Assembly: GCF_000430995.1 (NCBI RefSeq)
Contig: NZ_HF952018.1
Span: 176,180-220,907 of the forward strand
DNA: 44,728 nucleotides
Direction: 5' to 3'
Source of the DNA: Thermobrachium celere DSM 8682
Lineage (GTDB): Bacteria; Bacillota; Clostridia; Clostridiales; Caloramatoraceae
The position numbers were made by a program, and so were the translations under genes. Shown here one piece after another: positions 13,021 through 34,800 of this stretch. Positions within the stretch are counted from its first letter, which is position 1; every line of letters starts with the position of its first letter. A model generated the notes under the pieces. It was not told where the DNA came from and searched no databases. It saw only the letters and a list, made by a program, of their open reading frames with translations.

Positions 13021-13070
13021 AAATATAATTAAGTATGCCATAAAAATAACAAGCAAGGGGTGTGAATTTA

Positions 13071-14123: not shown

Positions 14124-14524
14124 TGAAAACACTACAAGAATTAGAAGAAATTAGAAAAAGGACCCTAGATAGAGTAAATCAAAGAAAGGATAGAACAACA
14201 ACAAGAATAGTTGTTGGTATGGCAACATGCGGTATAGCAGCAGGAGCAAGACCAGTTCTTCTTGCAATTATGGAAGAGGTTGAAAAGCTAGGTCTTACTG
14301 ATGTTGTAGTTGCTCAAACTGGATGTATCGGTCTTTGTAAGATGGAACCAATTGTTGAGGTTATAAAGCCAGGTGAAGAAAAGGTTACTTATGTTAAGAT
14401 GGATGCAGAAAAGGCAAGAAGAATAGTAAGAGAACATGTTAAGGACGGAAAAGTTGTTGAGGAATACACAATGCACGTAATTCAAGGAAAGATACTAAAT
14501 GACTATAAAGTAGAAAAAGAGTGA
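14123..14524 (+). CDS. small [2Fe-2S] thioredoxin-like protein of the hyd operon
   Basis: 133 residues with the thioredoxin-like ferredoxin fold seen in NuoE and in the N-terminus of HydB. Cysteines C36 (MATCGIAAGA), C68 and C72 (GCIGLC) sit where three cluster ligands are expected. The usual fourth ligand, two or three residues before C36 in HydC, is Gly here, so the cluster would have three Cys or an unusual ligand. In some four-subunit clostridial hydrogenases the equivalent protein is called HydD. It overlaps the ATPase stop by one base and lies 14 bases before hydB, so it is very likely co-translated with the hydrogenase. A structural electron-carrier role is inference. Confidence 0.85.
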   Translation: MKTLQELEEIRKRTLDRVNQRKDRTTTRIVVGMATCGIAAGARPVLLAIMEEVEKLGLTDVVVAQTGCIGLCKMEPIVEVIKPGEEKVTYVKMDAEKARRIVREHVKDGKVVEEYTMHVIQGKILNDYKVEKE

Positions 14525-14538
14525 TTGGAGGGAAAAGC

Positions 14539-16332
14539 ATGGCTTTCTATCGTTCACAGGTTTTAGTTTGCGGTGGTACAGGATGTACATCATCAGATTC
14601 AATGAAGATTTTAGAAAAGTTTAAGGAAGAAGTTAAAAAGCACAACATAGAAAATGAAATAGAAATAGTAAGAACTGGATGTTTTGGTCTTTGTGAGTTA
14701 GGTCCTGTAGTTATTGTTTACCCAGAAGGAGCTTTTTATTCAAGAGTAAAGGTTGAAGATGTAGAAGAGATAGTTGCAGAACACTTAGTTAAGGGTAGAC
14801 CTGTTACAAGACTTCTATACACTGAAACAGTAGAAGAAGGAAGAATTAAATCTCTAAATGAAACAGGATTCTATAAAAAGCAAGAGAGAATTGCACTTAG
14901 AAACTGTGGGGTTATTGACCCAGAGAACATAGATGAATACATCGCTTTTGATGGATACAAGGCTCTTGCAAAGGTTTTAACTACAATGACTCCAGAACAA
15001 GTAATAGAGGAAGTTAAAAAGTCAGGCCTAAGAGGTAGAGGAGGCGGTGGTTTCCCAACAGGATTAAAGTGGGAGCTTACTGCTAAGTCAAAGGCAGATC
15101 AAAAATATGTTGTATGTAATGCAGACGAAGGAGACCCAGGTGCCTTCATGGATAGATCAATACTTGAAGGAGACCCACATTCAGTATTAGAGGCAATGGC
15201 AATTGCAGGATATGCAATTGGTGCTAACCAAGGATACATCTACGTTAGAGCAGAGTATCCAATAGCTGTTCAAAGATTAAAGGTTGCTATAAAGCAAGCA
15301 AGAGAATATGGACTACTTGGAAAGAATATATTTGGAACAGACTTTAGCTTTGATATAGAAATAAGACTTGGTGCAGGTGCATTCGTATGTGGTGAAGAAA
15401 CTGCACTTATGAACTCAATTGAAGGTAGACGTGGTATGCCAAATCCAAAGCCACCATTCCCAGCACAATCAGGACTTTGGGGTAAACCAACATTAATTAA
15501 TAACGTTGAAACTTACGCAAATATCCCTCCAATCATTGTAAGAGGTGGAGAATGGTTTGCTTCAAAGGGAACAGAAAAGAGCAAAGGAACAAAGGTATTT
15601 GCACTTGGTGGAAAGATTACAAACACAGGACTTGTTGAAGTTCCAATGGGTATAACTCTAAGAGAAGTTATATATGAAATAGGTGGAGGAATTCCAAACG
15701 GAAAGAAGTTCAAGGCTGTTCAAACAGGAGGACCATCAGGTGGATGTTTAACAGCAGAACACCTAGATACTCCAATTGAATACGATACTTTAACTGCACT
15801 TGGCTCAATGATGGGTTCAGGTGGTATGATTGTAATGGACGAAGATACTTGTATGGTTGACGTTGCAAGATTCTACCTTGACTTTACAAGAGATGAGTCA
15901 TGCGGTAAGTGTACTCCATGTAGAATAGGTACAAAGAGAATGCTTGAAATACTAGACAGAATAGTTGAAGGAAAGGGTACTTTAGAAGACCTAGACAAGC
16001 TTGAAGAATTAGGAAAGCAAATAAAGGCTGCTTCACTATGTGGACTTGGACAAACAGCACCAAACCCTGTTTTATCAACACTTAAGCACTTTAGAGATGA
16101 ATATGTTGCTCACGTTGTGGACAAGAAGTGTCCAGCTGGAGTATGCCAAGCACTTCTACAATACACAATTATTGAAGAAAAGTGTAAGGGATGTGGACTA
16201 TGTGCAAGACAATGTCCAGTAAATGCAATTTCAGGACAAGTTAAGAGTCCATTTAAGATAGATCAAGATAAGTGTATTAAGTGTGGTGCATGTATAGACA
16301 AGTGTCCATTCAAGGCAATAGTTAAGAAATAG
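14539..16332 (+). CDS. hydB: electron-bifurcating [FeFe] hydrogenase subunit HydB (NuoF-like, NADH/FMN)
   Basis: The start is ATG 14539 behind TTGGAGGG; an in-frame GTG at 14521 precedes that site. 597 residues in order: a [2Fe-2S] domain with C11, C16, C48 and C52; the FMN/NAD(H)-binding NuoF core with GRGGGGFPTGLKW (residues 166-178) and CNADEGDPGAFMDR; a SLBB-type segment; the 4Fe-4S site ESCGKCTPCRIG; and a C-terminal double ferredoxin (CKGCGLCARQC and CIKCGACIDKC). The extra C-terminal ferredoxin domains are typical of HydB from bifurcating enzymes rather than complex I. It oxidises NADH on FMN and passes electrons to HydA. It ends 15 bases before hydA. Confidence 0.95.
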   Translation: MAFYRSQVLVCGGTGCTSSDSMKILEKFKEEVKKHNIENEIEIVRTGCFGLCELGPVVIVYPEGAFYSRVKVEDVEEIVAEHLVKGRPVTRLLYTETVEEGRIKSLNETGFYKKQERIALRNCGVIDPENIDEYIAFDGYKALAKVLTTMTPEQVIEEVKKSGLRGRGGGGFPTGLKWELTAKSKADQKYVVCNADEGDPGAFMDRSILEGDPHSVLEAMAIAGYAIGANQGYIYVRAEYPIAVQRLKVAIKQAREYGLLGKNIFGTDFSFDIEIRLGAGAFVCGEETALMNSIEGRRGMPNPKPPFPAQSGLWGKPTLINNVETYANIPPIIVRGGEWFASKGTEKSKGTKVFALGGKITNTGLVEVPMGITLREVIYEIGGGIPNGKKFKAVQTGGPSGGCLTAEHLDTPIEYDTLTALGSMMGSGGMIVMDEDTCMVDVARFYLDFTRDESCGKCTPCRIGTKRMLEILDRIVEGKGTLEDLDKLEELGKQIKAASLCGLGQTAPNPVLSTLKHFRDEYVAHVVDKKCPAGVCQALLQYTIIEEKCKGCGLCARQCPVNAISGQVKSPFKIDQDKCIKCGACIDKCPFKAIVKK

Positions 16333-16347
16333 GAGGTACATGGAACT

Positions 16348-18084
16348 ATGGAAATGGTAAAGTTAACTATAGATGGAATAGAAGTAGAAGTACCAAGAGG
16401 AACGACAGTTATTGAAGCGGCAAGACAAATAGGCATAAACATTCCAAGTTTATGCTATCTAAAGGGTGTTAGCCATACATCAAGCTGTAGAGTTTGTGTG
16501 GTTGAAGTTGGACCAAGACTTATAGCATCATGTACATTACCTTGTGAAAATGGAATGGAAGTTAAGACAAACACTCCTAAGGTAAGAGAAGCAAGAAGAA
16601 CAGTTGTTGAGCTTCTACTTTCAAACCACAAGAGAGAATGTACTTCATGTAATAGAAGTGAAAACTGTGAACTACAAACACTTGCAAAGGAATTAAATAT
16701 AAGAGATTTAAGATTTGAAGGAGAAAGAATAAGCTACGAAATAGACAACTCATCACCTTCACTTGTAAGAGACCAAGAAAAGTGTGTTCTTTGTGGTAGA
16801 TGTATAAATACTTGTAAAAATGTACAAACTGTAGGTGCAATTGATTTTTCAAGAAGAGGATTTAACACAAGAGTATCAACTGCACTTGATAAGAATATAG
16901 CAGATACAGTATGTGTAAACTGTGGACAATGTATCATGGCTTGTCCAGTTGGTGCACTAACTGAAAAGGAAAACATTAAGGAAGTATGGAAGGCACTTGC
17001 TGATCCAGAAAAGTTTGTTGTAGTACAAACAGCACCAGCTGTAAGAGTTGCACTTGGTGAAGAGTTTGGAATGCCAATAGGAACAAGAGTTACTGGAAAG
17101 ATGGCAGCAGCATTAAGAAGACTTGGATTTGACAAGGTATTTGACACAGACTTTGCAGCAGACCTTACAATAATGGAAGAAGGAACAGAACTTCTTACTA
17201 GACTTGAAAAGGGAGAAAGACTTCCACTTATGACAAGCTGCTGTCCAGGATGGGTTAAGTTTGTAGAACACTTCTATCCAGAACTTATAGATAATCTATC
17301 AACTTGTAAGTCACCACATGAAATGGAAGGGGCATTAATAAAGCACTACCTTGCTGAAAAGCTTGGTGTTGATAAGAAGAATGTAGTTGTAGTTTCAATA
17401 ATGCCATGTGTTGCTAAGAAGTTTGAAGGACAAAGAGAAGAGCTTTCAAATGAAAATCTACAAGATGTAGATTATGTACTAACTACAAGAGAACTTGCTC
17501 AAATGATTAAGGAAGCAGGAATTGATTTTACAAAGCTTCCAGATGAAGAGTTTGATAACCCACTTGGAGAATCAACAGGTGCAGCAGTTATATTTGGTGC
17601 TACAGGTGGAGTTATGGAAGCTGCACTAAGAACAGTTTATGACCTACTTTCAGGACAAGATCTAGAATCAATAGATTATGTTCAAGTAAGAGGAACTACA
17701 GGAATTAAAGAAGCTGAACTTACTCTACCAAATGGAAAGACAATAAGAGCAGCTGTTGCACACGGACTTGGTAATGCAAGACAACTTATGGAGCTTGTAA
17801 AGAGTGGGGAAAAGCACTATGACTTCATAGAAGTTATGGCTTGTCCTGGAGGATGTGTAACAGGTGGAGGACAACCAATAGTAGATGCAAGAACTCAAGC
17901 ATGCATAGATGTTAAGGCAGAAAGAGCAAAGGCTATCTATGATGAAGATAAGGATATGCCAATAAGAAAGTCACATAAGAACCCATATGTTATAAGATTA
18001 TATGAAGAATTCCTTGGAAAGCCAAACAGCCACAAGGCACACGAACTACTTCATACTCACTATGTAAAGAGAGATAGATTCTAA
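16348..18084 (+). CDS. hydA: [FeFe] hydrogenase catalytic subunit HydA
   Basis: 578 residues, ATG 16348 eleven bases after AGGAGG. Domains: plant-type [2Fe-2S] (C36, C47, C50, C62), His-ligated [4Fe-4S] (H94, C98, C101, C107), two ferredoxin [4Fe-4S] sites (C146-C156 and C189-C199), then the H-cluster domain with all signatures: L1 TSCCPGW (C298 proton relay, C299 ligand), L2 MPCVAKKFE (C354) and L3 EVMACPGGCVTGGGQP (C499, C503). It ends with the small-subunit-like tail (HELLHTHY). It should reduce protons to H2 with electrons from NADH and reduced ferredoxin through HydB and HydC. The length fits the M3-type catalytic subunit. Codon use is strongly biased, suggesting high expression. It is the last gene of the operon. 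Confidence 0.96.
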   Translation: MEMVKLTIDGIEVEVPRGTTVIEAARQIGINIPSLCYLKGVSHTSSCRVCVVEVGPRLIASCTLPCENGMEVKTNTPKVREARRTVVELLLSNHKRECTSCNRSENCELQTLAKELNIRDLRFEGERISYEIDNSSPSLVRDQEKCVLCGRCINTCKNVQTVGAIDFSRRGFNTRVSTALDKNIADTVCVNCGQCIMACPVGALTEKENIKEVWKALADPEKFVVVQTAPAVRVALGEEFGMPIGTRVTGKMAAALRRLGFDKVFDTDFAADLTIMEEGTELLTRLEKGERLPLMTSCCPGWVKFVEHFYPELIDNLSTCKSPHEMEGALIKHYLAEKLGVDKKNVVVVSIMPCVAKKFEGQREELSNENLQDVDYVLTTRELAQMIKEAGIDFTKLPDEEFDNPLGESTGAAVIFGATGGVMEAALRTVYDLLSGQDLESIDYVQVRGTTGIKEAELTLPNGKTIRAAVAHGLGNARQLMELVKSGEKHYDFIEVMACPGGCVTGGGQPIVDARTQACIDVKAERAKAIYDEDKDMPIRKSHKNPYVIRLYEEFLGKPNSHKAHELLHTHYVKRDRF

Positions 18085-18130: not shown

Positions 18131-18278
18131 GATATCCGCCAAAGTGGTTCTACTGCTTTGGGGGATTAAGATATTGAGCCTGATTGCAAGGATTATTCTG
18201 AGCAAGAGGGGAAGGATATAGACAGACTCATAGCTATGGCCATATTATGCCTTCCAGCTTTTGCTGGAGGGCATTTTT
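18131..18278 (+). ncRNA. structured leader with terminator before the HydEGF operon; possible riboswitch of unassigned class
   Basis: The 215 bases between hydA and the TM1266-type gene hold a stretch that folds. ATATCC 18132-18137 pairs with GGATAT 18214-18219, enclosing a hairpin CCAAAG 18139-18144 with CTTTGG 18156-18161. TGAGCCTG 18175-18182 can pair with CAGACTCA 18223-18230 (7 of 8), which crosses the first helix and would make a pseudoknot. A strong terminator follows at 18248-18273: 11 pairs including one G-U, loop TTTT, then five T. Aptamer-like structure, terminator, then an operon start is riboswitch or attenuator architecture. I compared it by eye with TPP, SAM, cobalamin, Moco, THF, ZTP, NiCo, c-di-GMP, fluoride and guanidine types and saw no match. 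The terminator could simply end the hydA transcript. Confidence 0.5.
18248..18278 (+). terminator. intrinsic terminator between hydA and the maturation operon
   Basis: TGCCTTCCAGC (18248-18258), loop TTTT, GCTGGAGGGCA (18263-18273), then TTTTT. It either ends the hydCBA transcript or attenuates read-through into the maturase genes. It ends 22 bases before the next start codon. Confidence 0.9.
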
Positions 18279-18299
18279 ACTTTAGAAGGAGGAAGTAGA

Positions 18300-18545
18300 A
18301 TGGAAAAGAGGCTTGGAGTTGTTGCAATTGTAGTTGAGGATTTAGAGAGGGCAGAGGATGTAAATGCAATTCTACACGAGTTTAGTAGTTTAGTTGTTGG
18401 TAGAATGGGAATTCCCTATAGAGATAGAGGCGTATCTGTCATTTCACTAATTGTAGATGGAACAACAGATGAAATTAGTGCAATGACAGGTAAGCTTGGA
18501 AAAGTAAAAGGAGTAAGTGTAAAATCAGCATTAACAAAGAAATAG
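18300..18545 (+). CDS. TM1266-type iron-only hydrogenase system regulator
   Basis: The start is ATG 18300 behind AAGGAGG (18286-18292); an in-frame TTG at 18261 lies inside the terminator and is rejected. 81 residues with an ACT/ferredoxin-like beta-alpha-beta fold: a MEKRLGVVAIVVED strand, a RVGRMGIPYRDRGVSV-like centre (here VVGRMGIPYRDRGVSVISLIVDG) and a GKLGKVKGVSVKSALTK end. Small proteins of this family, named after Thermotoga TM1266, sit next to hydE/G/F in many anaerobes and are presumed to regulate them; there is no DNA-binding domain in this one. It is 8 bases before hydE in one operon. Confidence 0.88.
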   Translation: MEKRLGVVAIVVEDLERAEDVNAILHEFSSLVVGRMGIPYRDRGVSVISLIVDGTTDEISAMTGKLGKVKGVSVKSALTKK

Positions 18546-18553
18546 GTGATAGG

Positions 18554-19585
18554 ATGAAGGATTTAATATACAAGATAGTTGAAGGATACGTGCCAAGTTT
18601 AGATGAAATGGAAAAGATACTTTCATTAGATGAAGAGGATGCAGAAGTTTTATTTAAAGCTGCAGATGAGGTAAAGAAGAAATACTTTGGAAATGAAATA
18701 CACATAAGAGGAATAATTGAATTTTCAAGCTACTGCAGAGCAGACTGCTACTATTGTGGATTAAGATGTAGCAATAGAAATCTTCCAAGATACAGAATGG
18801 ATAAGGATGAGATAGTAGAATGTGCAAAGGAAGCTGTTGATGCAGGGTACAGAAGCCTAGTTCTTCAGTCAGGTGAGGATTTATATTATACAAAGGAAAT
18901 TTTAGGTGAAATAGTAGAGAGAATAAAGGATTATTCAGACGTTGCTATTACTTTAAGTATTGGTGAGAGAAGCTATAAAGAGTATGAGTACCTAAAGGAA
19001 AAGGGAGCAGATAGGTTTCTAATGAAGCATGAAACAGCAGATGAGTCTCTATACAACAGTCTTCATCCACATTCAAACTTTAAAAATAGAATAGACTGTC
19101 TTAAAAATCTAAAGATGTTAGGCTATCAATTAGGAAGTGGGTTTATGATAGGGCTTCCTGGACAGACTATAAGGACAATTGCAGAGGATATAATGCTTCT
19201 TAAGGAACTTGATGTTGATATGGCAGGAATAGGACCATTTATACCACACAAGGATACACCACTTGGAACATATGATGCAGGAAGTGCATTTTTAACAGTA
19301 AAGGCTGTTGCACTAACAAGAATTCTTTTAAAAAGGCCCCATCTTCCTGCAACAACTGCACTTGGTGTATTAAATACTAAATATAAAGATAAAGTTTTCT
19401 TTGCTGGTGCAAATGTAATAATGCAAAAGGTGGAACCTTATAAGTACAGAAGGTTATACGAAATATATCCAAAAGAATTTAAATTTGAAAAAAGTATAAG
19501 GGAAGAAAGATTAGATTTAGAAAACTACCTGTTGAGTTTAGGACTTGAGATTTCAGATAGTAGAGGCGATGCCCTAATAATTTAG
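18554..19585 (+). CDS. hydE: [FeFe] hydrogenase H-cluster maturase HydE (radical SAM)
   Basis: 343 residues of the biotin-synthase-like radical SAM barrel. The SAM-cluster motif is C61-x3-C65-x2-C68 (YCRADCYYC), followed by GLRCSNRNLPRYRM, RSLVLQSGED (SAM contact region) and SGFMIGLPGQT. HydE acts on an Fe(CO)2(CN)-cysteine intermediate from HydG to build the diiron centre. The three C-terminal Cys that hold a second cluster in Thermotoga HydE are missing here, which is common, and that cluster is dispensable. The gene is spaced 8 bases after the regulator gene and 11 before hydG, all in one operon. Confidence 0.94.
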   Translation: MKDLIYKIVEGYVPSLDEMEKILSLDEEDAEVLFKAADEVKKKYFGNEIHIRGIIEFSSYCRADCYYCGLRCSNRNLPRYRMDKDEIVECAKEAVDAGYRSLVLQSGEDLYYTKEILGEIVERIKDYSDVAITLSIGERSYKEYEYLKEKGADRFLMKHETADESLYNSLHPHSNFKNRIDCLKNLKMLGYQLGSGFMIGLPGQTIRTIAEDIMLLKELDVDMAGIGPFIPHKDTPLGTYDAGSAFLTVKAVALTRILLKRPHLPATTALGVLNTKYKDKVFFAGANVIMQKVEPYKYRRLYEIYPKEFKFEKSIREERLDLENYLLSLGLEISDSRGDALII

Positions 19586-19596: not shown

Positions 19597-21012
19597 ATGG
19601 AAACTGTAAAGCAAACATTTATAAATGATAATGAGATTTTTAAAATATTAGATGAGGCAAAGAAGAAGGCAGAGGATAGAGAATACGTTTTAAGTATTCT
19701 AGAAAAGGCAAGAGAAGCAAAGGGACTTACACCAGTTGAGGCTGCAGTACTTTTAAATATTGAGGATAGAGAGCTTTTAGATAAGATGTTTAAAATGGCA
19801 AAGGAGATAAAGGAAAAGATATATGGTAGAAGAATAGTTTTATTTGCACCACTTTATGTAAGTAACTACTGTGTAAATGAATGTGAATATTGCGGATATA
19901 AGCACTCAAACTGTTCATTTAAGAGGAAAAAACTAACTATGTCTGAACTTATTGAGGAGGTTAAGGTATTAGAGTCACTTGGGCACAAAAGACTTGCCCT
20001 TGAGGCTGGAGAGGACCCTCAAAACTGTCCAATTGAATATATATTAGACTGTATAAGAGCGATATATTCAATTAAATTTGATAATGGAAGTATAAGAAGG
20101 ATAAATGTAAATATTGCAGCAACAAGTGTTGAGAACTATAGGAAGTTGAAAGAGGCAGAAATTGGGACATATATACTTTTCCAAGAAACATACCATAGAG
20201 AAACCTATGAAAAGATGCATAAAAAAGGTCCAAAGCATAATTATGATTACCATACAACAGCAATGGATAGGGCAATGGAGGGTGGCATTGATGATGTAGG
20301 ACTTGGTGTATTATATGGACTTTATGATTATAAGTATGAAACTGTTGCAATGCTTCTCCATGCACAGCATCTTGAGGAAAAGTTTGGAGTAGGGCCTCAT
20401 ACAGTTTCTGTTCCAAGGCTAAAAAAGGCAGAGGGCGTTGATTTAGAGAAGTTCCCATATTTAGTATCTGATGAAGATTTTAAGAAGATTGTAGCTGTAT
20501 TAAGACTGTCTCTACCATATACAGGAATGATTTTATCTACAAGGGAAGAGCCAAAGTTTAGAGATGAAGTAATAGCTCTTGGTATATCTCAAATAAGTGC
20601 AGGTTCCTGTACAGGTGTTGGAGGATATGTTGAATATTATAGGGGAGAGCACCACGATGATGAAAAGCCACAGTTTGAGGTAGGAGATCACCGTTCACCA
20701 CTTGAGATAATAAAGAGTCTACTTAGGGGTGGATATATACCAAGCTACTGCACAGCTTGTTATAGAGAAGGAAGAACTGGAGATAGATTTATGAGACTTG
20801 CAAAAACAGGTCAGATAAATAACGTATGTCAACCAAATGCACTAATCACATTAAAGGAGTTCCTGCTTGATTATGGCGATGAAGAAGCAAGAAAGTTAGG
20901 TGAAGAGGTAATAAAAAGAGAATTAGAGACAATTCCAAATGAGAGGGCAAAGGAAGCAACAATAAGGATGCTTGAGAGAATTGAAAAGGGAGAGAGAGAT
21001 TTAAGATTCTAA
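19597..21012 (+). CDS. hydG: [FeFe] hydrogenase maturase HydG (tyrosine lyase, radical SAM)
   Basis: 471 residues, ATG 19597 behind TAGGAGGT. The N-terminal SAM-cluster motif is C92-x3-C96-x2-C99 (YCVNECEYCGY), and the barrel continues with LALEAGEDP and LFQETYHRETYEKMH. The C-terminal auxiliary-cluster motif Cx2Cx22C is complete (SYCTACYREGRTGDRFM to NNVCQP); it separates HydG from ThiH. HydG cleaves tyrosine to p-cresol and dehydroglycine and yields the CO and CN- ligands as an Fe-cysteine synthon. It lies 11 bases before hydF. Confidence 0.95.
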   Translation: METVKQTFINDNEIFKILDEAKKKAEDREYVLSILEKAREAKGLTPVEAAVLLNIEDRELLDKMFKMAKEIKEKIYGRRIVLFAPLYVSNYCVNECEYCGYKHSNCSFKRKKLTMSELIEEVKVLESLGHKRLALEAGEDPQNCPIEYILDCIRAIYSIKFDNGSIRRINVNIAATSVENYRKLKEAEIGTYILFQETYHRETYEKMHKKGPKHNYDYHTTAMDRAMEGGIDDVGLGVLYGLYDYKYETVAMLLHAQHLEEKFGVGPHTVSVPRLKKAEGVDLEKFPYLVSDEDFKKIVAVLRLSLPYTGMILSTREEPKFRDEVIALGISQISAGSCTGVGGYVEYYRGEHHDDEKPQFEVGDHRSPLEIIKSLLRGGYIPSYCTACYREGRTGDRFMRLAKTGQINNVCQPNALITLKEFLLDYGDEEARKLGEEVIKRELETIPNERAKEATIRMLERIEKGERDLRF

Positions 21013-21023: not shown

Positions 21024-22214
21024 ATGTTAGATACACCAAAGGCAAATAGGCTACACATTGCTATATTTGGAAGAAGAAATGCTGGAAAATCAAGTCTTAT
21101 AAATGCAATAACAGGTCAAGAAATAGCCCTTGTTTCAGATTATGCAGGAACAACAACAGACCCTGTATATAAGGCTATGGAGCTTTTGCCAATTGGTCCT
21201 GTTGTTATAATAGATACAGCTGGAATTGATGATGAAGGAGAGGTAGGAGAATTAAGAGTTAAAAAGACAAGGGAAGTTTTAGATAAGACAGATCTTGCAC
21301 TGCTTGTATTTAGTGCAGAAAATACTGACTTATCAATGGAGAAGGAATGGTATTCATTACTAAAAGAGAGAAAAATACCTACAATTGGAGTTGTAAATAA
21401 GATAGATGTAGAGGATTTAGACTTAGAAGTATTAAAAAATGAATTTGATTTACCCTTTGTTAAGGTTAGTGCAAAAGAAAAAATAAACATAGGAAAATTA
21501 AAAGAAGCAATACAGCAGTATGCACCAGAGGACTATGAGAGAAAAACAATTTTAGGTGATGTTGTAAAAAGAAAGGATCTTGTTGTTTTAGTTGCACCAC
21601 AGGATATACAGGCACCAAAGGGAAGATTAATACTACCTCAGGTTCAAGTTATAAGAGACATATTAGATAACGATGCACTTGCTTTAACTGTGAAGGATAG
21701 TGAGTTAACAGACATTTTAAGTGCACTAAATAGAAAACCAGACTTAGTTATAACGGATTCACAGGTATTTGAAAAGGTAAATGGCATTTTAGATAAGGAT
21801 ATACCTTTAACCTCCTTCTCAATTTTAATGGCTAGGTATAAGGGTGATTTAAAAATACTCATAGAGGGTGCAAAGGCTATAGATACACTTAAAGATGGGG
21901 ATAAGGTGCTAATAGCTGAGGCATGTACGCACCACCCGCTTCAGGGTGACATAGGACGTGAAAAGCTTCCAAACTGGTTAAGGCAAAGGACTGGTGCAAA
22001 CCTTGATATTACAGTAAATGCAGGAGTTGATTTTCCAGAGGATTTAACTAAATATAAGCTAATAATCCACTGTGGTGCGTGTATGTTCAACAGAAAGCAG
22101 ATGATGACAAGAATAATAAGGGCAAGGGAGCAGAATGTACCGATAACCAACTATGGAGTTGCAATTGCATATATGAATGGTATACTTGATAGGGTAACAG
22201 GGATGCTGATTTAG
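21024..22214 (+). CDS. hydF: [FeFe] hydrogenase maturase HydF (GTPase scaffold)
   Basis: 396 residues, ATG 21024 after AAGGAGG. The N-terminal third is a small GTPase: P-loop GRRNAGKSSL (residues 12-21), switch region GTTTDPVYK, G3 DTAGIDD, G4 NKID. A dimerisation domain follows, then the C-terminal cluster-binding domain with ACTHHPLQGDIG and IHCGACMFNRKQM, giving the CxHH...HCGxC ligand set of HydF. It carries the 2Fe precursor and delivers it to apo-HydA. The stop codon lies in the operon terminator. With hydE and hydG the maturation set is complete. Confidence 0.95.
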   Translation: MLDTPKANRLHIAIFGRRNAGKSSLINAITGQEIALVSDYAGTTTDPVYKAMELLPIGPVVIIDTAGIDDEGEVGELRVKKTREVLDKTDLALLVFSAENTDLSMEKEWYSLLKERKIPTIGVVNKIDVEDLDLEVLKNEFDLPFVKVSAKEKINIGKLKEAIQQYAPEDYERKTILGDVVKRKDLVVLVAPQDIQAPKGRLILPQVQVIRDILDNDALALTVKDSELTDILSALNRKPDLVITDSQVFEKVNGILDKDIPLTSFSILMARYKGDLKILIEGAKAIDTLKDGDKVLIAEACTHHPLQGDIGREKLPNWLRQRTGANLDITVNAGVDFPEDLTKYKLIIHCGACMFNRKQMMTRIIRAREQNVPITNYGVAIAYMNGILDRVTGMLI

Positions 22215-22398: not shown

Positions 22399-22427
22399 TA
22401 TAATCAGGATTGTTAAAACATTAACTA
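22399..22427 (+). promoter_or_regulatory. -10 element and Rex-like site before the chemoreceptor gene
   Basis: TATAAT at 22399-22404 is followed at 22410-22427 by TTGTTAA-AACA-TTAACTA, 13 of 14 defined positions of the Rex consensus. It lies across the expected start of transcription, where a repressor would block initiation. No good -35 box is seen (TTAAGC at about 22374-22379 is the best). The rest of 22230-22477 is AT-rich and shows nothing else I can name; GAGGGGAGG at 22463-22471 is the ribosome binding site. Confidence 0.45.
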
Positions 22428-25139: not shown

Positions 25140-25182
25140 TTTAAGAAAGTTGCTAAACAACATGATAATATATTTTGAAGAG

Positions 25183-25240
25183 GCCCCATGAAAGATCTTT
25201 GAAATTAGCATTAGATCTTTCTGGGGCTAGTTTATATATT
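25183..25240 (+). terminator. terminator of the methyltransferase gene
   Basis: GCCCCA plus GAAAGATCT (25183-25198, one bulged T) pairs with AGATCTTTCTGGGGC (25213-25227), followed by TAGTTTATATATTTT. It shows that the apparent upstream coding extension of the next gene is not translated. Confidence 0.75.
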
Positions 25241-25285
25241 TTAAATATAAGTAATTTACAAACTTACATTATCAAAAAAATAACA

Positions 25286-25314
25286 TTGAAAAATATTCGG
25301 AAAAATTATAATAT
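25286..25314 (+). promoter_or_regulatory. promoter of the group D-like hydrogenase operon
   Basis: TTGAAA (25286-25291), a 17-base spacer and TAATAT (25309-25314); an overlapping TATAAT at 25307-25312 has a 15-base spacer. It lies between a terminator and the first gene (ribosome binding site GGGGGAA, start 25346). Confidence 0.55.
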
Positions 25315-25345
25315 TAAAATAGATCAAATATGGGGGAATGTATAT

Positions 25346-25696
25346 ATGAAGTTAAGTGAGATTAAGGAATTAATTAAAGCTGAAGTATTATGCAATGAAG
25401 AGATGCTTTCAATGGAAACAACATGTGCCTTTGGGTCAGATTTGATGAGTGATGTTTTAGCATTTTCATGTAGGGATACGATTTTAATTACAGGACTAAC
25501 TAATATTCAAACTATAAGAACAGCAGAGATGCTAGATATTAAATGTATTATTTTTGTAAGAAATAAAAGGCCAGATGAATCAATAGTAGAGCTCGCCAAG
25601 GAAAAGGGGATGTGTCTGCTTGCCACTAGACATACAATGTTTACAACCTGTGGAATACTTTATAGTAATGGGTTAAAAGGAGTTGACATGGAGTAA
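25346..25696 (+). CDS. DRTGG-domain protein (first of operon)
   Basis: The start is ATG 25346 behind GGGGGAA; longer readings cross the upstream terminator and are rejected. 116 residues, one DRTGG-type domain: MKLSEIKELIKAEVLC, then VLAFSCRDTILITGLTN, then DIKCIIFVRNKRPDESIVEL and LLATRHTMFTTCGILYSNGL. DRTGG domains occur next to CBS domains and in phosphotransacetylase-like proteins and are thought to bind nucleotides; stand-alone ones accompany [FeFe] hydrogenase homologues in Clostridia. The gene starts a five-gene operon and overlaps the next gene by one base. Confidence 0.8.
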   Translation: MKLSEIKELIKAEVLCNEEMLSMETTCAFGSDLMSDVLAFSCRDTILITGLTNIQTIRTAEMLDIKCIIFVRNKRPDESIVELAKEKGMCLLATRHTMFTTCGILYSNGLKGVDME

Positions 25697-26121
25697 TGGA
25701 GGAGTTACTTTCTGTAAAATATGATATAGAAAGTGGGGATTTTATAAGAGGTGGAGAAGCATCAAGTAATTTGAAAAAGCTTCTAAACCAGCTTGGAATA
25801 AGAAGTGACATTATAAAGAGGATTTGTGTTGCCTGTTATGAGGCAGAGATGAATATAGTTATTCATAGCGTAGGTGGATATATTGAGGCTAAAATATATA
25901 GCGATCACATTGAGATAATAGCATATGATTATGGTCCAGGTATCCCTAATATTGAACTTGCAATGCAGGAGGGATATTCAACAGCTTCTGATATTGCAAG
26001 AGAAATGGGATTTGGTGGGGGAATGGGGCTACCAAACATCAAAAGGAGCAGCGACGAATTTTATATAAAGTCGGAGGTAGGCAAGTATACGGAAATTAAA
26101 ATAATAATTTACTTTAATTAA
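25696..26121 (+). CDS. anti-sigma-factor-like (RsbW-type) ATPase
   Basis: 141 residues, a complete small GHKL ATPase: N-box ACYEAEMNIVIHS, G1 box DYGPGIPNIE, G2 GFGGGMGLPNIKRS and the closing strand TEIKIIIYF. That is the size and plan of anti-sigma kinases RsbW/SpoIIAB and of RsbT. Such proteins bind ATP and phosphorylate a Ser/Thr on an STAS partner or bind a sigma factor. No STAS or sigma gene is adjacent, so the partner is unknown. It overlaps the DRTGG gene by one base and lies 9 bases before the hydrogenase homologue, suggesting that it relays that protein's state. Confidence 0.87.
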   Translation: MEELLSVKYDIESGDFIRGGEASSNLKKLLNQLGIRSDIIKRICVACYEAEMNIVIHSVGGYIEAKIYSDHIEIIAYDYGPGIPNIELAMQEGYSTASDIAREMGFGGGMGLPNIKRSSDEFYIKSEVGKYTEIKIIIYFN

Positions 26122-26130
26122 GGTGATATT

Positions 26131-27369
26131 ATGAAAAAACTATTTCATGCAGTTGGATTAATTCCCGAAAAGTGCATAGGATGTACAAAATGTTTAATGA
26201 ACTGTCCTGTAGAAGCAATAAGAGTTAAAAACGGAAAGGCAGTAATATACAATGAAAAGTGTATAGACTGTGGTGAATGCATTAAGGTATGTCCATATGG
26301 TGCACATGTTGCAATTAGAAATTCGCTAGAAGATATAACAAGATATAAGAAAAAGATTGTTATACCTTCAGTTACATTATATTCTCAATTTGGAAAACAA
26401 GTTGAACCAGCAGCTATTAATGAAGCTCTTCTTAAACTGGGATTTGATGAGGTGTTTGATATAACCTTTGCATGTGATATTGCGTCTGAAATATTAAAAA
26501 AGGATATAGAGAAGGCAGAAAAACCAGCTATTTCAACTCTATGTCCTACAGTTATAAGGTTAGTTGAAACTGAATATCCAAGTTTAGTTAACCACTTAGT
26601 TAAGATGCTTACTCCAATTGAAATTTCAGCCCTTTTAACTAGAGAAAAATATCAGAGTCAAGGATACAAAAATGAAGAAATAGGTATCTTTTTCTTAACG
26701 CCTTGCCCAAGTTGGGTAACAAAAATTAGTGAGATTTCAAGGAATGAGAATATTAGAATAAATGGTGCTATTTCAATAAGTGATATATATCCAAAACTAT
26801 TAAAGCATATAAAATCAAAAAATAATGAGTCGAATTCACACATATCAAAAACAGGTCTTTTATGGGCATATTCAGGAGGACAGTGTGAAGCGATTGGAGT
26901 TGAAAATTCTATTTCAGTTGACGGTATAAAAAATGTAATAAAGGTTTTAAGTGACGTTGAAAATGGTAGACTTGATGACATTGATTATATAGAAGTTTTA
27001 GCATGTCCAAATGGATGTGCTGGTGGTTTACTTCTTGTTGAAAATCCTTATAATGCTGAAAGGATAACAAAATCAATAATTGATAAACTTGATTTTACGT
27101 ATCAAATACATGATTTTTCACATATAGAAAGTAAATTAGTTAGCGATGAAGGTAAAAAAGAGGTAAAGTATAAGGTGCCTGTTGATTTTGAGAGTGCAGT
27201 TAAAATGATAAAGAGCATGAACAATATAATAAATATTCTTCCTGGTACAGATTGTGGATTATGTGGTTCACCTTCATGTAAGGCCTTTGCTGAAGATGTA
27301 GTCAAAGGACTTGCAAGTATTGAAGATTGTAAATTTATAAGTAGTGGAGGGTTTAAAAATGAAGGTTAG
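26131..27369 (+). CDS. group D-like [FeFe] hydrogenase homologue, probably a sensor
   Basis: 412 residues. An N-terminal double ferredoxin (C15, C18, C21, C25 and C44, C47, C50, C54) leads into a shortened H-cluster domain. Its three signatures are degenerate: TLCPTV (C138) for TSCCPxW, TPCPSW (C192) for MPCxxK, and LACPNGC (C292, C296) for MACPGGC. All four cysteines that would hold the H-cluster remain, but the proton-relay Cys of L1 is Leu and the conserved Lys of L2 is Trp. The C-terminus adds a [4Fe-4S] site C375-x2-C378-x4-C383-x16-C400 (PGTDCGLCGSPSC). This architecture matches the putative sensory/regulatory group D proteins. It overlaps the next gene by 11 bases. A catalytic role is unlikely but not excluded. 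Confidence 0.85.
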   Translation: MKKLFHAVGLIPEKCIGCTKCLMNCPVEAIRVKNGKAVIYNEKCIDCGECIKVCPYGAHVAIRNSLEDITRYKKKIVIPSVTLYSQFGKQVEPAAINEALLKLGFDEVFDITFACDIASEILKKDIEKAEKPAISTLCPTVIRLVETEYPSLVNHLVKMLTPIEISALLTREKYQSQGYKNEEIGIFFLTPCPSWVTKISEISRNENIRINGAISISDIYPKLLKHIKSKNNESNSHISKTGLLWAYSGGQCEAIGVENSISVDGIKNVIKVLSDVENGRLDDIDYIEVLACPNGCAGGLLLVENPYNAERITKSIIDKLDFTYQIHDFSHIESKLVSDEGKKEVKYKVPVDFESAVKMIKSMNNIINILPGTDCGLCGSPSCKAFAEDVVKGLASIEDCKFISSGGFKNEG

Positions 27370-27691
27370 AGATATAGTAAATGCACTAAACTTTGAGGTT
27401 TTAGCTGGAGAAGAGGGATTAGATAGAGAAGTAAAGGGTGTGTATACATGTGACCTATTGAGCTGGGTAATGTCCCATGGGAAGCAGAATAATGCATGGA
27501 TTACAGTTCAAGTACATCCTAATATAATAGCAGTTGCAACCCTTTTAGAGTTTTCTTGTGTAATAATACCTGAAGAAATAGAGGTGGAAGAATCAACACT
27601 TAAAAAGGCTAATGATGAAAAGATTCCGGTTTTAAAGTCAAAATTAAATGCCTACGAAATATGTATTGAACTTAATAAATTAGGGGTATAA
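27359..27691 (+). CDS. DRTGG-domain protein (second of operon)
   Basis: ATG 27359 behind GGAGGG, starting inside the end of the hydrogenase homologue. 110 residues: MKVRDIVNALNFEVLAGEEG, then VYTCDLLSWVMSHGKQNNAW and WITVQVHPNIIAVATLLEFS, a second DRTGG-type domain. It is distinct from the first copy and lacks the RHTMFTTCG end, so the two probably have different partners. The overlap implies translational coupling with the hydrogenase homologue. Confidence 0.8.
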   Translation: MKVRDIVNALNFEVLAGEEGLDREVKGVYTCDLLSWVMSHGKQNNAWITVQVHPNIIAVATLLEFSCVIIPEEIEVEESTLKKANDEKIPVLKSKLNAYEICIELNKLGV

Positions 27692-27693
27692 GT

Positions 27694-28401
27694 ATGAAAA
27701 TATATTATGATTTTCACATACACACTGCACTATCTCCTTGTTCAGATGATGATATGACTCCTAATAATATAGTTAATATGGCAAAAATTAAGGAGTTAGA
27801 TGTTATTGCAATCACTGATCATAATAGTTGTAAAAATGTTGAAGCATGTATGAAGGTTGGAACTCAAGTTGGAATTTTAGTTATACCGGGAGTGGAAGTT
27901 CAAACAAAAGAAGAAGTACATTTAGTTTGTTTATTTAGAGATTTAAATACAGCATATATTTTTCAAGAATATGCCGACAAAAAACTTCCTAATATCAGTA
28001 ATAAACCGAATATATTTGGAAACCAAATAATATATAATGAATTTGATGAAGCAATAGGAGTAGAGGAAAGACTACTTTTAAATTCATTAGATGCCACAAT
28101 AGATGAAGTTTTTGAAAAGGTAAAAGAGCTAGATGGAATAGTAATTCCAGCCCATATTGATAAAGATACCTATAGTATTATATCAAACTTAGGTTTTATG
28201 CCAGATTATTTAGATATAAATACAGTAGAGTATTCAAGTTTTGATAAATTACAAAGGTTAATTAAAAATAAAATAGTTAAAAATAACCTAATGTTTTTAA
28301 AAAATTCTGATGCTCATAATCTAGGACATATTTCAGAGAGGGAAAACTTTTTAGAGGTTGAAGAGTTGAGTATAGATGCAATAATAGATAGACTAAAATA
28401 A
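27694..28401 (+). CDS. PHP-domain phosphoesterase
   Basis: 235 residues, ATG 27694 behind AGGGGTA. A PHP metal-dependent phosphoesterase with the motif set FHIHTALSPC (first His pair), ITDHNSC (Asp/His), IPGVEVQT (Glu), EVHLVCLF (His), PAHIDKD (His) and NSDAHNLGH (Asp/His). These residues hold a trinuclear metal site in histidinol phosphatase and DNA polymerase PHP domains. Small stand-alone members hydrolyse phosphate esters such as nucleoside 3',5'-bisphosphates. As the last gene of the operon it may remove the signal that the DRTGG proteins bind, which is speculative. Confidence 0.88.
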   Translation: MKIYYDFHIHTALSPCSDDDMTPNNIVNMAKIKELDVIAITDHNSCKNVEACMKVGTQVGILVIPGVEVQTKEEVHLVCLFRDLNTAYIFQEYADKKLPNISNKPNIFGNQIIYNEFDEAIGVEERLLLNSLDATIDEVFEKVKELDGIVIPAHIDKDTYSIISNLGFMPDYLDINTVEYSSFDKLQRLIKNKIVKNNLMFLKNSDAHNLGHISERENFLEVEELSIDAIIDRLK

Positions 28402-28432
28402 AAGATGCTAAGGAACTAACCTTAGCATCTTT
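28401..28432. terminator. bidirectional terminator between convergent operons
   Basis: A 13-bp stem (28401-28413 with 28420-28432) has T-rich sequence on both strands after the hairpin. It serves the PHP gene on plus and the small unknown gene on minus. Confidence 0.88.
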
Positions 28433-28439
28433 TTTAGAT

Positions 28440-29035: not shown

Positions 29036-30970
29036 TTAAAAATATATGTCAGAAAACTCAATTGATATTCTCTCAACATTATTAAAGTTATTTAATGGAC
29101 TTAGATCTTTATATATGTCCTTCTCCAAATTATTGGGCAACAATATTATAAATTCACTACCTTTTCCCTCTTCACTTATTAATTTAATTTCCCCACCATG
29201 CATTTCAACAAATGATTTTACAATATTTAATCCCAGTCCACTTCCTTCGCGTTCACGTGAAAGTGACTTATTAACTTGGCTAAATCTTTCAAATATTATA
29301 TCTTGCTTATCCTTTGGAATACCAATGCCTGTGTCCTTTACAGATATACAAGTATATTCATCTAAATCTGTTATATTTACAAATATCTTGCCACCTTCTG
29401 GAGTAAACTTTATTGCATTAGACAGAAGATTTAATATTATTCTTTCTATTTTATCTTTATCGCATCGTATTATTTTTTCCTCTATTTCTGTATCAAAGGT
29501 TATTTCAATATTTTTTGAATTGATATAGTCAGCAACCGATTGTACTATATCCTCAACTAAAGATACAATATTGCATTCAGATAAATTAAGTTGCATATAT
29601 CCAGCGCTAACTTTAGTTATATCTATTAGGTTATTAACTAGTCTTAATAGCCTATAGCAGTTTTGTTTTATAGATTTATTATATTTTTGTAGTGTATGAT
29701 TTTCATCTATAATTTTATTGTTCTTTAAATACAATTCAAGAAGTTGTATAGAACCCAAAATTATATTTAAAGGAGTTCTAAATTCGTGGGAAATATTAGC
29801 AAAGAATTCAGAACGTATATTTTCATATTCTTCAAGTTCTTTAATTTTTCTTCTGCTCTCCTCAAGTTTTTTAGAGTCTGTTATATCCTTTGCATATATG
29901 AATATTCTTTCAAGCAAGTTGTTCTCTATTATAGGCATTATATTTAATTCTAAATAGTATTCTTCATTAACCTTATTGACTAGTTTAGTTTCGAATTTAA
30001 TAGGTTTACCATCCAGCAGTGAATCTATAGAACTTTTTTGAGTTACCTTATCTTCTATATCAAATAAATTATATATTGTATAATTTTCCAATTCATCCTT
30101 ATTTAGTTTAGTCAATTTATAAAATGTAGGATTTGCAACAAATATATATCCAGAGTAGAGGTCAGCCTCAAGAAGTACATCAGGGCTATAGTCAAAGAAG
30201 GATTTATATTTCATTTGTTGATTTAAATTTTTTATTTCAATCAACTTCTTTTCAGTTATATTTCTAACAACAGCCATAACTTCTTTTTCATTAAGATAGA
30301 CTAATCTTGCTTCAAAATATTGCTTTTGTTTTTTGAAGGGGAGAGAGTATTCTATAGATTTTATCTTTTTTGTTTTAAGTACATATTCTATTGCAGATTC
30401 ATAAAGTAATGCAACATCTTGGGGAAATATATCAGTAATTTTATTTCCAATTATATTTTCGGGTTCAACAAATAGGTCAGTTTTATTATAGGTTTTAAAG
30501 TCAATTATAGTTGTGTCAGAACTTATTCTAAAATATAAATCAGGAAAAGCCTTGATTATTGAAAATAGTTCTGATGTAATGTTTTTTAAGCTTTCTTCTG
30601 CAACCTTTCGTTTTGTAATGTCAACACCAACTGTCCACCTACTTAATCCTTCTATTGGATAAAGGGATGAAACATTTGACCATGATATTATTTTTTTAGT
30701 TCCATCTTTACAGGTTATAGTTGTTTCTAGATTTCTAAAGTTATTTTCAAGCTTGGGAATGAGATTTAAAACATAATTTCTATATTCATCATCTGGATAT
30801 AACAATTTAAATGCATTGGGGTTATTTAATATTTCTTCCTTGGTATATCCAGTTACTCTTTCTGCTTCTTTATTCCATAATATAAAATTTCCATTCTTGT
30901 CTAAAGCATCTATAATAACAGGCATATTTTCAAGTATGTATATGGAATTTTGATAGATTATATTCTGCAT
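29036..30970 (-). CDS. soluble sensor histidine kinase with three PAS domains
   Basis: 644 residues, ATG 30970 behind GGAAGGGGAAAGG. There is no membrane segment or signal. PAS 1 spans about 8-125 (NGNFILWNKEAERVTGYTKE and WTVGVDITKRK), PAS 2 about 130-243, PAS 3 about 250-370 (SPDVLLEADLYSGYIFVANP). HisKA has H395 in ISHEFRTPLNIILG. HATPase_c has N-box LLSNAIKFTPEGG, G1 VKDTGIGIPKD and G2 GSGLGLNIVKSFVEMHGGEI. It is a cytosolic PAS sensor, typical of kinases that feed Spo0A in Clostridia, where orphan kinases are normal. No response regulator gene is adjacent and no cofactor-binding residues are obvious. The only neighbour on the strand is the unknown 172-residue protein. Confidence 0.9.
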   Translation of the reverse strand: MQNIIYQNSIYILENMPVIIDALDKNGNFILWNKEAERVTGYTKEEILNNPNAFKLLYPDDEYRNYVLNLIPKLENNFRNLETTITCKDGTKKIISWSNVSSLYPIEGLSRWTVGVDITKRKVAEESLKNITSELFSIIKAFPDLYFRISSDTTIIDFKTYNKTDLFVEPENIIGNKITDIFPQDVALLYESAIEYVLKTKKIKSIEYSLPFKKQKQYFEARLVYLNEKEVMAVVRNITEKKLIEIKNLNQQMKYKSFFDYSPDVLLEADLYSGYIFVANPTFYKLTKLNKDELENYTIYNLFDIEDKVTQKSSIDSLLDGKPIKFETKLVNKVNEEYYLELNIMPIIENNLLERIFIYAKDITDSKKLEESRRKIKELEEYENIRSEFFANISHEFRTPLNIILGSIQLLELYLKNNKIIDENHTLQKYNKSIKQNCYRLLRLVNNLIDITKVSAGYMQLNLSECNIVSLVEDIVQSVADYINSKNIEITFDTEIEEKIIRCDKDKIERIILNLLSNAIKFTPEGGKIFVNITDLDEYTCISVKDTGIGIPKDKQDIIFERFSQVNKSLSREREGSGLGLNIVKSFVEMHGGEIKLISEEGKGSEFIILLPNNLEKDIYKDLSPLNNFNNVERISIEFSDIYF

Positions 30971-33717: not shown

Positions 33718-33806
33718 AACCTGAAAAGGGCAAACTTAGGGAAACCTAAGGACGCAAAGTCATGGGCCTAAGGAGCAGAGCTCTATGGTTGCCAGACTGC
33801 CAGGTT
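33718..33806 (+). ncRNA. cyclic di-GMP-I riboswitch (GEMM) aptamer
   Basis: The conserved core is present in order: P1 AACCTG (33718-33723), AGGGCAAAC, a GAAA-capped hairpin CTTAGG-GAAA-CCTAAG, GACGCAAAGTC, a GGGCCTAAGG helix leading to AGAGCTCT, GGTTGCC, and the P1 partner CAGGTT (33801-33806). The GAAA tetraloop and GACGCAAAG receptor side are exact. The guanine in AGGGCAAAC, which discriminates c-di-GMP from cGAMP-type variants, looks like the c-di-GMP form. It lies directly upstream of a secreted protein gene. Confidence 0.93.
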
Positions 33807-33852: not shown

Positions 33853-34800
33853 ATGTTTAAAAGAGTCATATCATTCTTTTTGATCCTTTTTGTATTTGTA
33901 TGCACGTCAACTATTTCAGCTACTGCTAAGTCTAAATTAAATCCCAAAGTTAAGAGAGGAGTAATTAAAAAAGTTATAATTAATAATAAAGTTTTAAGTG
34001 AAACTACATATAAGGTACCTTACGGTACTTGGCTTTGGGATACAAGTAAAATCCTTCAGATTCCAGATGACGTTATAAAATTCCTAAATAAAAATGGATT
34101 TAATGAAGTTTATGTTCAGATAGACCAGAGTTTAAACTATTCACATTACAGCTATTTTATAAAAAATGCTAATAAGTTTGGAATAAAGGTTTATGCATTA
34201 GATGGTAATCCTAATTGGACATTGAAAAGCAAAAGAGTTCAGCTTGATAAATTTTTAAATTGGGTTGTAAAATATAACAACTCTAAGGCAAATGATGAGA
34301 AATTTTATGGAATACACCTTGACTCTGAGCCCTATCTTTTAGATTTATGGAACATAAATAGAAATCAGGCAGTTTTAGAGTACATGGATTATATATCATA
34401 CATTAAGAATTTTGCAGTAAAAAATAAATTAAATATATCAGTTGATATGCCTTTTTGGTTCGATGAAATACCCCTTTTAAATAAGGGTATGAGTTTAGCT
34501 GAATATGTGATTTCTAAGGTGGATTCTGTAAATATAATGGCCTATAGAGATAGAGCAGAATTAATAATAGAGATAGTAAAGAATGAGATAGATTATGCTA
34601 AGAAATATAATAAGAAAATTATGATTTCGGTTGAAACAGGCAACACAAGTGAAGGAGATTATGTAACCTTCTATCAAGAGGGGTTAAATTATATGTGGAG
34701 TGAAATAAATAAGGTAAATGATTATTATAGAAATAAATACAATAATTTTGGTTTTGCAGTACATTATCTGGAAAATATTATGATGATGAAAAGAGAGTAA
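33853..34800 (+). CDS. secreted protein with glycosidase-like barrel, c-di-GMP-controlled
   Basis: 315 residues with a clear signal peptide (MFKRVISFFLILFVFVCTSTISATA). The mature part shows the strand-helix rhythm of a TIM barrel: NEVYVQIDQ, IKVYALDGNPNW, YGIHLDSEPYLLDLW, ISVDMPFWF, VNIMAYRD, IMISVETGN, FGFAVHYLEN. Acidic residues at strand ends (HLDSEPY, SVDMPFW, SVETGN) are placed like glycoside hydrolase catalytic acids, but I cannot name a family. The preceding riboswitch ties it to c-di-GMP, which in Clostridia controls motility and surface attachment. A role in extracellular polysaccharide or surface-structure turnover is inference. Confidence 0.7.
   Translation: MFKRVISFFLILFVFVCTSTISATAKSKLNPKVKRGVIKKVIINNKVLSETTYKVPYGTWLWDTSKILQIPDDVIKFLNKNGFNEVYVQIDQSLNYSHYSYFIKNANKFGIKVYALDGNPNWTLKSKRVQLDKFLNWVVKYNNSKANDEKFYGIHLDSEPYLLDLWNINRNQAVLEYMDYISYIKNFAVKNKLNISVDMPFWFDEIPLLNKGMSLAEYVISKVDSVNIMAYRDRAELIIEIVKNEIDYAKKYNKKIMISVETGNTSEGDYVTFYQEGLNYMWSEINKVNDYYRNKYNNFGFAVHYLENIMMMKRE

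Follow-up and report, generated by a model that had tools for sequence, protein, structure and literature searches.

A five-gene operon around a group D [FeFe] hydrogenase of Thermobrachium celere as a possible redox/H2-responsive phospho-switch

A five-gene operon built around a group D (M2e) [FeFe] hydrogenase, HydS, lies at positions 25346-28401 of a 44,728-nucleotide stretch of Thermobrachium celere DSM 8682 (GCF_000430995.1, contig NZ_HF952018.1, 176,180-220,907; hereafter the window, from whose start all positions are counted). With a probability of roughly 0.5, this operon is a cytoplasmic redox/H2-responsive phospho-switch that tunes the adjacent ferredoxin/NAD complex. The families of its parts, their fixed order, gene fusions, intact catalytic residues and neighbouring genes are read directly from sequence; the kinase activity, the phosphoacceptor, the substrate of the PHP enzyme, the ligand and the target we infer. 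The operon and its flanking signals are composed as follows.

25285-25315, + strand: possible operon promoter (TTGAAA ... TATAAT-like; TTGAAA at 25286)
25346-25696, + strand: DRTGG domain protein 1 (DRTGG1), 116 amino acids, with an invariant D32-x-x-S35 (Pfam DRTGG, 1.8e-8; 99 homologues)
25696-26121, + strand: SpoIIAB/RsbW-type GHKL ATPase, 141 amino acids, probable Ser kinase (Pfam HATPase_c_2)
26131-27369, + strand: HydS, group D (M2e) [FeFe] hydrogenase with Trp195 and Gln251 (Pfam Fe_hyd_lg_C, 4Fe-4S and C-terminal FeS domains; alignment; tree)
27359-27691, + strand: DRTGG domain protein 2 (DRTGG2), 110 amino acids, with an invariant D32-x-x-S35 (Pfam DRTGG, 7e-8; 99 homologues)
27694-28401, + strand: PHP metal-dependent phosphoesterase, 235 amino acids (Pfam PHP, 2.9e-9; metal-site residues invariant in 26 aligned sequences)
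28400-28433, no strand assigned: bidirectional intrinsic-terminator-like hairpin after the PHP gene, at the operon end

Adjacent genes overlap or almost touch: the stop of DRTGG1 and the start of the ATPase gene overlap as TAATG, and DRTGG2, whose start was picked by its ribosome site, shares 11 nucleotides with the HydS gene. A five-gene group D operon had been proposed here by an earlier, sequence-only reading of the window, and both its content and its coordinates were borne out by open reading frames (ORFs) and Pfam.

HydS matches were obtained in 173 of 291 class genomes at E<=1e-20, a threshold that admits group C too, and, at E<=1e-60, in 117 of 299 phylum genomes and 14 of 17 family genomes. 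The gene set was compared over 126 HydS loci, consisting of the window, five Caloramator-type loci, 100 class regions (the 80 best-scoring places after the window and 20 lower ones, not a random draw) and 20 phylum regions picked for long frames, distance or score. The locus of Caloramator sp. mosi_1 (L005), with HydS and other genes in pieces, was excluded from all counts, and L007, with only a ferredoxin-like match, was dropped. Within 6 kb and on the same strand, DRTGG1 is found in 115 of the 126 loci, the ATPase in 120, DRTGG2 in 118 and PHP in 114. All four partners occur in 105 loci, and the order DRTGG1-ATPase-HydS-DRTGG2-PHP is kept in 105 of these 105. Across 20 control regions with group A or group C homologues, no member of the partner families was assigned, the sole raw match being one of 17 bits between the ATPase model and an HK2 protein (HK2 being a second GHKL ATPase, found in the hyd operon). 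Among the 21 incomplete loci, four are truncated by the end of a contig (L080, L115, L126, L128), four carry fusions scored as missing genes (L180, L181, L184 and L179, the last also without DRTGG1 and PHP), and in L125 the second DRTGG gene is labelled as the first. Twelve are without at least one part in the sequence read (L046, L059, L061, L067, L074, L101, L118, L130, L144, L183, L195, L196); among them, the sequence of L059, L074 and L183 is short on one relevant side, 1279 bases are unread in the stretch of L061, and all four partners are absent from L130 and L144.

Several of the parts are joined in one polypeptide. First, the ATPase and HydS form a single frame of 626 amino acids in L179, both halves of which are confirmed by Pfam. 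Second, HydS and DRTGG2 are fused in a single frame in L180 and L181, with both halves found by Pfam in L181 and the L180 frame lying outside the Pfam scan. Third, DRTGG1 is fused to the ATPase in L184, where Pfam finds the ATPase half and a profile of our own the DRTGG half. Finally, single frames join PHP to HK2 in L197 and two CBS domains to the ATPase (CBS-CBS-ATPase) in L198, and Pfam finds both halves of each. Taken together, these fusions chain the parts, PHP by way of the HK2 protein from the hyd operon, and are the strongest, though indirect, evidence of physical contact. The earlier suggestion that the operon is a signalling system is strengthened by this conservation and by the fusions, but the traits of HydS that it named are mostly standard for group D, and an H2-sensory role had already been published.

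The nearest solved relatives of the ATPase are structures of the anti-sigma F factor SpoIIAB (7e-11 by profile), and it stays below the family cut-off of the NCBIfam model spIIAB (1.7e-12, 47.4 bits against 135). Its GHKL site is intact, with E49, N53, D78, G80, G82, G107, G109 and G111 present in 101 of 101 homologues. The sequence-only reading had called it an anti-sigma-like kinase; the SpoIIAB/RsbW-type fold agrees with this, but neither a sigma factor nor an anti-anti-sigma factor (STAS antagonist) was found among the five conserved genes, the other neighbours being without a systematic scan, and therefore the term describes the fold only. In both DRTGG proteins D32-x-x-S35 is invariant over 99 homologues each, and neither of the two further DRTGG domains of the genome that could be aligned has this motif; its Ser is the best candidate for a phosphoacceptor. 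The PHP enzyme keeps its metal ligands (H8, H10, D42, H43, E68, H76, H154, D206 and H208, invariant in 26 aligned sequences), and its solved relatives are nucleases and phosphoesterases with varied substrates. Since these relatives include enzymes that cleave nucleotides and nucleic acids, since DRTGG relatives in the PDB include parts of manganese-dependent pyrophosphatase, and since CBS domains are fused to an ATPase homologue, a second-messenger system can be conceived, in which the ATPase or the DRTGG pair would handle a nucleotide that PHP hydrolyses. However, no synthase-like family is present among the five genes, and PHP is absent from some otherwise present modules (L046, L101, L118), so that this explanation is very unlikely.

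The complex that the switch would tune in T. celere, HydABC, is encoded by hydCBA, which lies with the maturase genes hydEGF 3-12 kb upstream on the same strand; the sequence-only reading had missed both sets. MCP and methyltransferase genes lie between hydF and the operon.

13062-13565, + strand: hydC/NuoE-like subunit (NCBIfam NuoE model, over cut-off)
13575-14123, + strand: second GHKL ATPase, HK2 (Pfam HATPase_c; homologue fused to PHP in L197)
14123-14524, + strand: 2Fe-2S ferredoxin-like protein of the hyd operon (weak match to NCBIfam fdxn_Clost, 38.6 bits, below cut-off; conserved position)
14521-16332, + strand: hydB/NuoF-like subunit (NCBIfam PRK13596 NuoF, over cut-off)
16348-18084, + strand: hydA, group A [FeFe] hydrogenase catalytic subunit (NCBIfam FeFe_hydrog_A6, 4e-282, over cut-off)
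18261-18545, + strand: TM1266-family putative hydrogenase-system regulator (TIGR03959, over cut-off)
18554-19585, + strand: hydE maturase (TIGR03956, over cut-off)
19597-21012, + strand: hydG maturase (TIGR03955, over cut-off)
21024-22214, + strand: hydF maturase (TIGR03918, over cut-off)

Within the stretches read at the 126 loci, a HydA frame occurs in 74, HydB alone in 4, Rnf (at least three genes) in 12 and an Nqr-like pair in 2, with Rnf counted first where Rnf and HydA both occur. In L059, L107, L133, L140 and L142, hydC, HK2, the 2Fe-2S gene and hydB, without hydA, stand between the module and Rnf. The names were checked for RnfC and RnfD in L107 and for NqrF in L144, all confirmed, and for NqrF in L130, which falls just below its cut-off. 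No Rnf or Nqr genes were found in the 20 control regions, and in the window's genome no RnfC exceeds the family cut-off. Genes resembling pyrK-pyrD adjoin in four inspected loci (L062, L079, L105, L114) and were confirmed for L062. With Rnf or Nqr-like genes adjoining in 14 of the 126 loci, the module resembles a general redox device more than one for H2 alone; these contexts suggest that what it signals is the general redox poise. Its neighbours encode large Fe-S flavoenzymes, and in C. fervidus (L006) the module directly follows hydF with a gap of 99 bp; both facts would also suit an assembly or quality-control module, in which the GHKL ATPases would be chaperones and HydS would provide an iron-sulfur scaffold for HydABC or Rnf. 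Such a function is nevertheless rather unlikely in view of the resemblance of the ATPase to SpoIIAB, the CBS-ATPase fusion and the presence of PHP and DRTGG parts.

HydS itself has two N-terminal [4Fe-4S] motifs, an H-domain and a tail with Cx2Cx4Cx16C (C375, C378, C383 and C400), and no Pfam match to a PAS domain, the mark of group C. Two N-terminal [4Fe-4S] motifs, a C-terminal Cx2Cx4Cx16C and no PAS domain constitute the definition of group D in PMC8163306 (papers are cited here by PMC number, for the published passages covered). At the position of CpI Met353, HydS has Thr190, in keeping with the Ser or Thr of group D. The four Cys of the H-cluster (C138, C192, C292, C296) are each kept in 126 of 126 loci. 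At residue 137, corresponding to the proton-relay Cys C299 of CpI, the window has Leu and the 126 loci have Ala in 93, Ser in 18, Leu in 7, another residue in 8 and Cys in none; the missing relay Cys is thus ordinary for group D. Leu or Phe precedes C138 in the window's clade. Residue 195 occupies the place of the L2 Lys, assigned by alignment with the Lys of the window's own HydA and which we take to be K358 of CpI. This Lys contacts a cyanide ligand of the H-cluster. It is replaced by Trp in the window, whereas the 126 loci have Lys in 109, Arg in 9, Trp in 7 and Glu in one, the Trp rows being the window, the Caloramator-type L001, L002, L003, L004 and L006, and L045 from another family. The sequence-only reading had stated that the four H-cluster Cys are kept, that the relay Cys and the L2 Lys are lost and that a C-terminal FeS site is present, all of which the alignment confirms; of the three traits that it singled out, only the loss of the L2 Lys is special, and the lack of a relay Cys and the C-terminal cluster are standard in group D.

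A second change concerns proton transfer. An alternative path in TamHydS, the group D enzyme of Thermoanaerobacter mathranii, consists of E252, E289 and D265, which are described as highly conserved but not definitive for group D. In HydS, E288 and D264 are kept, and the equivalent of E252 is Gln251 (over the 126 loci, Glu 107, Gln 16, Ala 2 and Asp 1). A search of the family found Trp195 in 12 of 13 relatives, with Arg in one, and Gln251 in 12 of 12 readable ones, some of these relatives being from the same genomes as L001-L006. The NG86 dN/dS among six Caloramator-type HydS genes is 0.05-0.20; most of the pairs are saturated in dS, and the one close pair has a value of 0.077. Such purifying selection indicates that the Trp/Gln HydS is a maintained variant and not a product of decay. 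The idea that Arg and Gln variants occur where H-cluster maturation is missing was rejected: HydF and HydG are both present in six of the eight Arg genomes tested, out of nine Arg rows among the 126 (G081, G199, G109, G155, G269, G211), and neither is found in G259 and G056, both of which have other [FeFe] hydrogenases. Therefore, missing maturation is not the driver of these site changes.

The position of HydS was examined in a quick maximum-likelihood tree of 84 rows, in which rows were classed as D from their motifs and their similarity to the window and TamHydS itself is absent. The 51 D rows, the window among them, make up one side of a branch with a starred support of 99. Group C is nearest to group D, its own unity being weak (52), and group A is distant; the deep order is uncertain because long branches meet at the join with group A. 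The window belongs to a clade of 10 (starred support of 100; stem 0.88) made up of Caloramator kin, other family members and L045. It is nested in a clade of 19 (support 90, unstarred) with Gln or Ala at 251 in every row. Of the nine further rows (L085, L109, L144, L130, L107, L142, L095, L140, L133), seven are Rnf- or Nqr-linked and two are without a complex. Over the 39 D rows with known context, at least five changes between HydA and Rnf/Nqr contexts are placed on the tree. Loss of the Lys, loss of the Glu and Rnf/Nqr context mostly agree in direction, but each comparison has only one starred pair, and the independent events are too few for a test.

These data bear on two readings of HydS that compete with the redox/H2-responsive phospho-switch in what is sensed. 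HydS may have a normal H-cluster and be an H2 sensor of the conventional group D type, whose Trp and Gln only slow turnover further and whose binding of H2 triggers the switch. Its place in group D by tree and motifs and the nearby hydEGF favor this, as does TamHydS, which has an H-cluster, a low Km for H2 and slow turnover (PMC8163306, PMC10407848). However, E252 variants of TamHydS lose much activity (PMC10407848), the corresponding residue here is Gln, and the L2 Lys is otherwise kept or replaced by Arg in nearly all loci; the conventional sensor falls somewhat short of an even chance. Alternatively, HydS of the window's clade may be an H-cluster-free redox sensor, which lacks the 2Fe subcluster, carries [4Fe-4S] clusters alone and reports on how oxidised or reduced ferredoxin is. 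Relatives of [FeFe] hydrogenases without H2 chemistry do exist, namely Nar1/Narf. The constancy of Trp195 and Gln251 in the family, the Leu or Phe before C138 next to four H-cluster Cys kept throughout, the long stem, the low dN/dS and the 19-row clade with Gln or Ala at 251 and mostly Rnf/Nqr-linked rows outside the window's clade all point this way. On the other hand, hydEGF is adjacent, maturation is present in most Arg genomes tested, the Trp-bearing window and L045 are HydABC-linked, the association on the tree rests on one starred pair, and large changes of the pocket are tolerated by group D enzymes (PMC8163306). Loss of the H-cluster is accordingly a tentative proposal, a little less probable than the conventional sensor. 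The Trp/Gln clade offers a natural test of whether the H-cluster is needed at all.

The redox/H2-responsive phospho-switch would work as follows. HydS would sense electron or H2 pressure via its [4Fe-4S] clusters and H-domain and would dock directly onto the SpoIIAB-type kinase and onto DRTGG2. The kinase would act with DRTGG1, the Asp-x-x-Ser of both DRTGG proteins being the putative phosphorylated site, and resetting the signal would fall to the PHP enzyme jointly with HK2 from the hyd operon. The output would be the activity, assembly or expression of the neighbouring complex, HydABC here and Rnf or an Nqr-like complex elsewhere. Because the tail cluster of TamHydS is unresponsive to H2 (PMC13104023), the signal inside HydS is probably not the redox state of that cluster, and a conformational signal that starts in the H-domain is more likely than a flow of electrons into the tail. 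This unresponsive cluster is also one of several points that weigh against the phospho-switch. Thirty-four of the 126 loci have no such complex in the stretch read, some of them being short contigs; D-x-x-S35 may be structural; PHP may act on nucleic acid or nucleotides, since its solved relatives include nucleases; and the output could be plain transcription, since an AraC-type regulator also flanks the TamHydS gene (PMC8163306). AlphaFold2 models of HydS, with a pLDDT of 30 from one sequence and 34 from six, were unusable. A wider and doubtful extension is that the operon represents a widespread, undescribed redox module of the phylum, in which a hydrogenase-derived sensor gates a SpoIIAB-like kinase that acts on the DRTGG pair and controls an adjacent HydABC, Rnf or Nqr-like complex, and that the Caloramator lineage has shed the 2Fe subcluster to give a pure sensor of ferredoxin redox state.

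With regard to the control of the operon, a promoter-like stretch similar to that at 25285-25315 is seen by eye 5′ of DRTGG1 in L001, L002, L004 and L006; promoter-like sites in the region are at chance level (30 observed against 28.4 expected). A hairpin at about 25182-25228 was rejected as an operon element and read instead as the terminator of the preceding gene because different hairpins occupy a similar place in L001, L004 and L006. Control by Rex was also rejected: with a consensus that we presume to be that of Rex, no site with one mismatch or less lies near the HydS operon, and sites with up to three mismatches show no excess over the whole window (13 against 16.9 expected). Rex-like palindromes with one mismatch do occur at 12879-12896, 5′ of hydC, and at 22410-22427, 5′ of the MCP gene (0.09 expected by shuffling).

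Downstream on the opposite strand, at 29036-30970 (-), lies a gene for 644 amino acids, named histidine kinase-like by our own ATPase profile and by eye; a similar neighbour at a similar distance in L001, L002, L004 and L005 shows conservation in Caloramator. A c-di-GMP-I riboswitch (33719-33804, 83 bits) is found just 5′ of an ORF with a secreted-protein-like start (33853-34800). Elsewhere in the same genome there are a second full-length group A-like hydrogenase and further [FeFe] hydrogenase gene fragments (G000:C17:3213-3682 and G000:C48:3061-3222), one with an internal stop. Three other genomes (G063, G252, G098; assemblies 96-98% complete) have full-length group A-like hydrogenases, yet their HydF is below cut-off and HydG has no match at 1e-60.

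One of the closest known systems is TamHydS of group D. For group D hydrogenases, a putative role as sensors, low activity, the lack of the Cys, the tail cluster and a location upstream of bifurcating hydrogenases, with a kinase nearby, have been published (PMC8163306, PMC10407848, PMC13104023, PMC3561251, PMC3608648); the H2-sensory role was proposed in PMC8163306. TamHydS has the L2 Lys and E252, unlike HydS of the window with Trp195, Gln251 and Leu at residue 137, and neither DRTGG, PHP nor Rnf linkage was noticed in the published passages covered on TamHydS. The way in which sensory hydrogenases of group D relay their signal is a stated open question (PMC8163306), for which the five-gene set and its fusions name candidate partners. 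The ATPase shares with SpoIIAB and RsbW the GHKL fold, the E-x3-N box and the glycine-rich ATP site, but differs in scoring below the family cut-offs and in having homologues fused to HydS, DRTGG1 or CBS domains. Group C TmHydS, which the papers on TamHydS also describe, is similar in being from the nearest group in the tree, without a proton-relay Cys, with a C-terminal FeS site and a putative sensor, and differs in its PAS domain and in a SpoIIE-type phosphatase (L222) or fused output (L180, L184) in place of the five-gene module. In L222 the phosphatase gene (L222:10971-12143 (+)) comes straight after the group C HydS, so that both sensory lineages carry partners of the Ser-phosphorylation type; ORFs of 389-390 amino acids occupy the same place in L218, L220, L221, L224, L225 and L226. 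A group C-like hydrogenase, with H-domain and FeS tail, is fused to a sigma-54 activator AAA domain and a Fis-type HTH in L184 (L184:12756-14978 (-)), apparently a one-component H2/redox-responsive transcription activator. Another is fused to PAS, HisKA and HATPase domains (Pfam) in L180 (L180:12388-16072 (-)), next to an ORF that by eye resembles an NtrC-type response regulator.

The gene clusters of biofuel-producing bacteria in PMC3561251 are also close in arrangement, with an M2e hydrogenase upstream of a bifurcating HydABC and a kinase between them, and their locus-tag gaps would be compatible with the gene order found here. The passages covered were not seen to mention DRTGG, PHP, any fusion, an association with Rnf or a Lys-to-Trp clade. 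Searches within an open-licence library found no paper on the DRTGG/PHP set with HydS or on its Rnf linkage, the one match for DRTGG with hydrogenase being an unrelated Desulfovibrio gene. To the extent of these searches, it is new for group D hydrogenases that the five genes are so strictly kept together, that some of them are fused, that they occur beside Rnf or Nqr-like genes and that a Trp/Gln clade exists.

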